64,000 bases of DNA, from contig NC_015948.1 in the NCBI RefSeq assembly GCF_000223905.1, positions 1,364,001 through 1,428,000 of the forward strand, given 5' to 3'. Source of the DNA: Haloarcula hispanica ATCC 33960 (GTDB taxonomy: Archaea; Halobacteriota; Halobacteria; Halobacteriales; Haloarculaceae). The notes under the pieces are model-generated. The model did not search any database and was not told the origin of the DNA. It worked only from the letters and a program-made list of their open reading frames with translations. A program made the position numbers and the translations under genes. Of this stretch, positions 20,208 through 20,936 are shown in pieces; within the stretch, counting starts at the first letter, position 1; every line of letters starts with the position of its first letter.

Positions 20208-20489
20208 ATGGCCGAATTCACTCTCCTCGAACTGCATCTCGACGGCGCTGAGTTCACTGCGAACGCTCCGTTCAGTTCCTCGGACGATGACGAAAAATCG
20301 GAGCGCACTTCGCGGTGGTCCCGGTCCCGGACGAGCGAGACGACCAACGAAACGGACGCTGAGGCTGACGGTGGCCGTAACGTCGGTCGCCTCGCGCTCG
20401 CGGTACTCGGTGCCGTCGGGCTCGTCGCGGTCGTCCTGCGTCTGTACCTCGGTGGGTCAGACGGCGACGACAGCGACGAAGCCCTTTGA
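20208..20489 (+). CDS. hypothetical acidic protein with a C-terminal membrane segment
   Basis: A 93-residue protein: residues 1-20 form two short strands (FTLLELHLDGAEFTANAPF), 24-55 are a charged, Ser/Thr-rich low-complexity region, and about 58-80 are one hydrophobic helix (LALAVLGAVGLVAVVL), followed by an acidic tail. The stop codon coincides with the left edge of the structured element that begins at about 20488, so the last residues may have been changed by its insertion. I recognise no family. Confidence 0.6.
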   Translation: MAEFTLLELHLDGAEFTANAPFSSSDDDEKSERTSRWSRSRTSETTNETDAEADGGRNVGRLALAVLGAVGLVAVVLRLYLGGSDGDDSDEAL

Positions 20490-20870
20490 CCTCCTCCCAC
20501 GCCTGAAGGCGCGGGATTCCCGCGGCACCGCACCGCTAGGTTGGGAGTTTCAGGTTTGTAGCCAGGTCGGCATGACCGGACTCCTGGCGGGGCCAAGCCG
20601 CCGTTACTCCTATCCCCGGTATGGGGATTCAGAGTTACCGTGTGTCGGAATCCACAGCCAGCGGCCCGAAAGGGATTCTTTTGGACGTAGCGTGGCCTGA
20701 ATCCCGATATTATCCGTTTATCTGGGCGGCTGATCCGCCTCGGTATGGTCATGCATACGGTGTCACCGGTTATAAAACTCCGGCTGAGTGAGGCTACAGG
20801 CGAAGCTGCCGGGTTGTCGGCTTCATCCACACCCCTGAAGGGGTGGGCTTTCGCCTTGCTCCCGCTGTAA
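20488..20870. mobile_element. TnpB-less IS200/IS605-type (IS1341-like) remnant or MITE
   Basis: The left end contains hairpin CCCACGCC-TGAA-GGCGCGGG (20496-20515). The right end contains ACCCC-TGAA-GGGGT (20831-20844) followed by GGGCTTTCGCC. Both resemble the subterminal palindromes with a TGAA loop found at the ends of haloarchaeal IS1341-type elements. Between them are further stems (ATCCCC/GGGGAT at 20612-20628; GGGATTC 20672-20678 with GAATCCC 20699-20705) and no transposase frame. I read it as an internally deleted element or MITE. The exact ends cannot be fixed by eye. Confidence 0.55.
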
Positions 20871-20936
20871 GACGCCGTCCAACTCCACAGCAAGGCCACG
20901 AACCGAACGCCGGTGGTCGTTTTCACAGGGAGAAGG

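Follow-up and report, generated by a model that had tools for sequence, protein, structure and literature searches.

A gene-free mobile element of Haloarcula hispanica with a TnpB guide-RNA scaffold and a conserved RNA domain of its own

A window of 64,000 nucleotides from Haloarcula hispanica ATCC 33960 (G000:C3 1364001-1428000) carries a 381 bp mobile element that has no protein gene and that very probably holds a non-coding RNA maintained by selection. The element is almost certainly a non-autonomous representative of the IS200/IS605 type, of the kind called PATE, and its borders and mobility are demonstrated by genome comparison. Sequence comparison further demonstrates homology of its right half to the scaffold of TnpB guide RNAs, a conserved RNA structure and a promoter-like box. 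Given these features, we think it rather likely that the element is a satellite transposon without proteins of its own, which produces a TnpB guide RNA itself and relies on TnpA and TnpB supplied in trans. Its parts are as follows, with position 1 being the first letter of the window.

20486-20866, minus strand: whole mobile element (PATE), 381 bp, defined by a second copy, an empty site in a sister genome and borders common to other elements
20867-20870, minus strand: TTAC, the insertion target, retained in empty and filled sites, and putative TAM for TnpB
20830-20845, minus strand: left-end hairpin
20770-20777, minus strand: TATA-like box TTTTATAA
20632-20743, minus strand: 5′ RNA domain, 112 nt, with the predicted RNA start
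20495-20640, minus strand: TnpB guide-RNA (omegaRNA) scaffold, Rfam sot0042
20496-20515, minus strand: right-end hairpin, with two-sided pair changes
20486-20489, minus strand: TCAA, right end of the element, which on the plus strand supplies a TGA stop codon at 20487-20489
20466-20485, minus strand: host flank, the putative guide of an RNA transcribed from the element
20208-20489, plus strand: host gene of 93 aa, without a Pfam family, whose stop codon is swapped and whose protein end is unchanged

Borders, target site and mobility

A search of the same genome identified, besides the window copy, a second one at C3:680749-681131 that differs from it at one of 381 positions, as well as both ends of a TnpB element at C1:45026-46506. 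The latter encodes a TnpB of 420 aa with the Pfam domains OrfB_IS605 and Cas12f1-like TNB. Near-terminal palindromes are shared with this IS605-type element (87% over 67 nt, which includes the left-end hairpin, and 89% over 62 nt), and the two ends of the window element form a direct repeat (D1) of 81% over 21 nt. The open reading frames inside the element are mechanical only, and none fits a transposase. A sequence-only reading had already proposed a TnpB-less IS200/IS605-type element devoid of a transposase gene, with hairpins that present a TGAA loop on the plus strand at 20496-20515 and about 20830-20845, and all of this is borne out by the sequence, the reading frames, the additional copies and the TnpB-element matches.

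The borders agree in 22 left-border and 21 right-border rows, the window counted in, as TTGAC (GTCAA) on one side and CTGTAA (opposite strand TTAC) on the other, with one row showing the variant CTATAA. A TTAC target together with a right end of TCAA is the pattern of IS608. The span of 20488-20870 (383 bp) first suggested must therefore be moved to 20486-20866, and the supposed target TTTGAC at 20485-20490 contains TTGAC, the reversed form of GTCAA at the right end of the element itself; the target is TTAC on the minus strand. Because tnpB of the TnpB element runs from the end equivalent to 20866 towards the end equivalent to 20486, the window element is assigned to the minus strand, and what had been taken for its left end is its right end.

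An exact empty site is present in the sister genome G001, the closest relative, where the flanks are joined around a single GTAA, and removal of 20486-20866 from the window reproduces that site exactly through GTAA. The site of the second copy is empty in G024, with TTAC followed directly by the flank, and that copy is present in place in G001. At both insertions a single GTAA occurs in empty and filled sites alike, which means that no target was duplicated. A lack of further copies together with occupancy of the site in all relatives, which had been named as refuting the first interpretation, was not encountered. The window copy is probably younger than the second copy, since it is absent from G001 and is nearly identical to the latter. 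An 11 bp flank, GACGCCGTCCA, beyond the left end at 20871-20881 is also common to the two copies (the second being locus L007). Comparison with relatives shows this flank to be ancestral at the second copy and foreign to the window site, a pattern suggestive of gene conversion between the copies, extending past the element border.

The element was expected to abut the stop codon of the preceding gene and possibly to alter the end of that gene. It does lie at the stop codon, but within rather than beside it: the gene ends GAC GAA GCC CTG TAA in G001 and GAC GAA GCC CTT TGA in the window, such that insertion into CTG TAA is repaired to CTT TGA by the element end, and the protein still terminates with DSDEAL. 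The second copy likewise resides within a stop codon, with only the last residue altered from E to D. All three insertions that were read closely, namely these two and an 83-nt mini-element at queC of G001, are in a G-TAA stop codon with TGA restored. We considered stop-codon targeting as a rule and dropped it, given that the excess over GTAA control sites is small and unconvincing: under a strict open-frame criterion there are 7 such insertions among 39 of the PATE class (8 under a looser one), 4 among 28 others and 144 among 1456 GTAA controls, and the window's own copy falls outside the strict count.

Two mini-elements of 83 nt, TTAC counted in, were observed in G001, one at the end of queC (L041) and one elsewhere (L040). 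Each consists of a left end only, and they share an identical inner end, TCAC. The queC site is empty in relatives of the same genus, and a unit composed of the left end alone may thus be mobile by itself.

The RNA part: scaffold, 5′ domain and promoter-like box

The right half of the element matches sot0042 (RF02656) over the full length of the model (1-174) with an E value of 2.3e-13 and 54.7 bits, which is under the gathering score of 88. PATE copies score about 35-76 bits, all below that value, whereas five of six TnpB loci from the same genus score 96-132 bits and the sixth (L085) gives no match. At its gathering thresholds, Rfam reports a tRNA and nothing else for the whole window. The proposal that a part encoding guide RNA had been kept is therefore upheld by the scaffold in this half. 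Overlap with a tnpB gene in sense, as expected of sot0042, is absent, for the element has no tnpB.

Matches between the window element and TnpB elements of the genus are located at element positions 1-67, about 213-292 (the end of the tnpB coding sequence) and 314-385, and no match to these TnpB elements is found at positions 67-213. A simple deletion of a TnpB element was rejected as an origin, given that the middle is unlike TnpB elements. The description of the element as an internally deleted copy is thus too weak: the middle is a separately conserved RNA domain with a promoter-like box rather than a remnant of tnpB. An alignment with 23 TnpB right ends shows that approximately 30-40 nt of coding sequence is missing from all three PATE copies and that the scaffold blocks are retained, and in all three one stem pair is changed on both sides, from U-A to G-C. 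A structure drawn from this alignment pairs in 96.2% of its cells, with two-sided changes in 17 of 29 pairs (9.3 in shuffles) and a covariation score of 0.331 (0.136 in shuffles and at most 0.082 when slid); because of this shared origin, the slid control favours the structure. The alignment (A1/A2) holds 23 of 26 TnpB right-end segments, leaving out a duplicate (L111) and two loci with no recognised end (L106 and L108); a duplicate locus, L089, had been skipped earlier.

The middle alone (20640-20805) has matches in 33 of 392 Halobacteriales genomes and 18 of 95 genera when the best two candidates per genome are scored, and the matched places carry elements of identical layout. From 25 of 26 extracted sequences (A4), we built a covariance model of the 5′ domain with 21 pairs, termed R1, which scores 99.4 bits in the window, itself one of the 25 training rows. 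R1 matches 7 of the 38 given sources (the window, the second copy and five PATE loci) and has no match in the 31 TnpB/TnpA loci. Among the 392 genomes, 138 have a match at E ≤ 0.001, spanning 60 of the 95 genera, and 64 have one at E ≤ 1e-10 as read from the match table; individual inspection covered matches stronger than about 2e-11, and copy numbers, which reach 9, are lower bounds based on the best nine candidates per genome. A pattern scan of named genomes yielded at least 80 stretches, in Halorubrum, Natrinema, Natronococcus, Halobacterium, Haloferax, Natronomonas and others. The element pattern has no exact match in the viral_contigs collection and the phages collection gave no match, and 39 plasmid records match the element, none of them over 80% of it.

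By itself, the 5′ domain matches no Rfam family. In 20 R1 matches from 20 genomes outside the training set (E 3.6e-17 to 2.4e-11), sot0042 follows directly on the same strand in every case (E 1.2e-15 to 7.9e-6) and overlaps the last few bases of the R1 match. We conclude from this arrangement that the two RNA parts form a unit, uninterrupted by any gene. No conserved reading frame is apparent in the element, and the many insertions and deletions in an alignment of whole RNAs (A3) speak against a coding region. Several PATE copies (L122, L126, L129, L132 and L133) are interrupted by short hairpin-rich inserts, which resemble small mobile repeats reported to target Haloquadratum PATEs in the part of PMC3119063 available to us.

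Upstream of the RNA domain, at a distance of 29-33 nt, five adjacent positions, which mark the TATA-like box, are A/T in 90-98% of 61 aligned elements and are preceded by a GC-rich CGG. This is the distance at which an archaeal TATA box is expected for a start at the conserved CCGAG. For 50 of the 61 elements, identity was calculated by part. Mean pairwise identity is 0.80 in the 5′ domain, 0.80, 0.70 and 0.76 in the scaffold, 0.79 in the right hairpin and 0.53 in a variable hairpin, as compared to 0.61 in the left end, 0.46 in the linker and 0.39 in the spacer. With the variable hairpin set aside, conservation of the RNA exceeds that of the left end, which TnpA has to recognise. The right-end hairpin and the junction with the flank are not independent evidence of an RNA, because transposition alone requires that the DNA ends be kept.

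Folding of the element exceeds chance mainly on the minus strand (z = -4.78, with none of 100 shuffles as good; plus strand z = -2.01, with 3 of 100 as good), and for the window RNA by itself z is -3.48. A structure of the whole RNA from 23 sequences pairs in 96.4% of cells and includes 110 cells with two-sided changes (40.4 in shuffles). These rows derive from 28 loci (L120-L147) with the addition of the window, L046 and L047, and exclude L122, L124, L126, L129, L132 and L133 (insertions or damage) as well as L125 and L145. When the structure was carried over to 25 held-out elements plus the window, the covariation score was 0.215 (0.128 in shuffles and at most 0.092 when slid). This second alignment (A5) uses 25 of 31 held-out elements, without L154, L186, L190, L191, L195 and L196. 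In it the variable hairpin fails (29.5% and 42.6% of cells pair) and one scaffold helix pairs in 66.9% of cells, for which real differences or misalignment could each be the explanation. The first two helices are almost invariant, such that covariation is no test of them.

A possible guide-RNA satellite and its partners

In the mechanism we favour, a Y1 transposase (TnpA) from another element would cut and join the ends after TTAC by single-strand cut and paste, without target duplication. The TATA box in the left part would direct a minus-strand RNA of approximately 260 nt, consisting of the private 5′ domain, the TnpB scaffold and host flank as a guide of 16-20 nt, whose position is placed by analogy with ISDra2 (PMC8612924, seen in part). 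This RNA would be bound by a TnpB encoded in another element, and the complex would then cleave alleles devoid of the insert, in which TTAC is followed by the flank; repair would copy the element back into the empty allele. The promoter-like box may be present because an element without tnpB could obtain no RNA from a tnpB mRNA of its own. Transcription, TnpB loading and the cutting of empty sites are the steps that we infer.

A broader proposal is that haloarchaea harbour a widespread class of guide-RNA-only transposons that exploit TnpB and TnpA of other elements. Each copy would be a transcription unit of TATA box, private 5′ domain, TnpB scaffold and flank guide, wherein the 5′ domain lets the RNA load TnpB without processing of a tnpB mRNA, or alters TnpB activity. 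We regard this proposal as evenly balanced between right and wrong.

Both partners can be sought in the same genomes. TnpB matches exist in all 138 R1-positive genomes and in 240 of 254 R1-negative ones (14 are without), which with kinship and completeness uncorrected gives p = 0.003, or 0.14 for the strong set of 64. Given that TnpB is nearly everywhere (378 of 392 genomes), this co-occurrence says little. TnpA matches are found in 118 of 138 R1-positive and 142 of 254 R1-negative genomes (p = 1e-9, likewise uncorrected for kinship and completeness), and in the strong set 57 of 64 genomes have one and 7 have none. The window genome has five TnpB matches besides a fragment, one intact Y1 transposase (Y1_Tnp) and one decayed copy. 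No match to the window element's ends was seen at the ends of the element with the intact transposase. The decayed fragment (L084 1501-1680, G000:C1:463768-463947) overlaps a related left end (86% over 44 nt) and is possibly the relic of a TnpA source.

It is also conceivable, albeit unlikely, that the RNA is a decoy or brake, in which the scaffold binds TnpB and the private 5′ domain inactivates the complex or keeps TnpB off its own mRNA, so that the element would supply an inhibitor instead of a guide. A strongly conserved 5′ domain that is missing from TnpB loci, attached to a retained scaffold, accords well with such a role, whereas the flank junction at the guide position is retained in the elements that were read, even though transposition alone could keep it. 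We give somewhat less credence to the idea that the RNA serves another protein or controls transposition, for example through TnpA, with the scaffold reflecting ancestry only. The more frequent occurrence of TnpA in R1-positive genomes and the lack of an Rfam match for the 5′ domain are in its favour, but scaffold pairs are kept by two-sided changes and the 5′ domain is joined to the scaffold in 20 of 20 loci. Least probable is that the element is an inert remnant of an ancient deletion, mobilised through its DNA ends alone and with RNA features as inherited leftovers, for although ends suffice for transposition and PATEs have been described as degenerate IS605 elements (PMC3119063, in the part seen), the RNA exceeds the left end and linker in conservation across 50 elements, a TATA-like box is in place, pairs change on both sides and the family reaches 60 of 95 genera.

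Cas12 is taken to descend from TnpB, whose cleavage of empty sites is credited with maintaining its transposon at a locus. Should the guide-RNA satellite proposed here be real, the RNA part of a TnpB system would have turned into a parasite in its own right that can draw on several TnpB genes simultaneously, and this could account for the persistence of such elements in polyploid archaea. The family would also offer a natural, conserved and, as predicted, separately transcribed TnpB RNA that is useful for asking what TnpB requires of its RNA.

Comparison with known systems

No title or abstract describing an RNA-bearing PATE family of the window type was found in the open-licence TnpB literature, which is no proof of novelty. 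The work of Meers et al. on TnpB (2023, Nature) is said to treat PATEs. In the searched text of PMC12558985, PATE, MITE and Haloarcula are unmentioned. What is known is the PATE kind; in the literature accessible in part, the RNA gene inside, its 5′ domain and their spread do not appear to have been described.

PATEs of Haloquadratum walsbyi resemble the window element in several respects, according to the part of PMC3119063 at hand: they lack genes and terminal inverted repeats, carry palindromes close to their ends, have ends like those of IS605-type elements and do not duplicate their target. One of them, HqIRS71, includes part of the C-terminal coding region of a transposase, and that same part is silent on any RNA, guide function or promoter of PATEs, the paper predating TnpB guide RNAs. 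A PATE-like element of Halanaerobium hydrogeniformans (PMC7290912, in the excerpt available) comprises, in about 271 nt, 28 nt of left end, the terminal 58 nt of tnpB and a right end in its full length of 160 nt, and this excerpt describes a single ends-only sequence with no added domain.

Among RNAs, HgcC (RF00062) of Thermococcus gives a weak full-length match on the minus strand of the window at 20478-20605 (E 0.0011, 24.9 bits, below the gathering score of 50). Similarly weak full-length matches are seen in many copies (L139, L178 and others) and in one TnpB locus. According to the part of PMC4247193 seen, T. kodakarensis expresses two HgcC RNAs that are unconnected with transposase genes. 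HgcC may be a TnpB guide RNA of thermophiles, with a putative common origin with the window element RNA.

In ISDra2, the flank at the right end is the guide and the TAM is the insertion target motif (PMC8612924), and TnpB has been reported to improve element retention and to process its own mRNA (PMC10278001), both sources being known to us in part. The RNA of ISDra2 stems from an element that bears tnpB, whereas the window element has none. Another close counterpart is sot0042, the haloarchaeal guide RNA of IS1341/TnpB elements, to which the window RNA is homologous over the full length of the scaffold. However, sotRNAs lie in tnpB and are products of processing (PMC8303175, partial text), whereas the window element RNA has no tnpB around it and comes with a promoter-like box and with a 5′ domain of its own.
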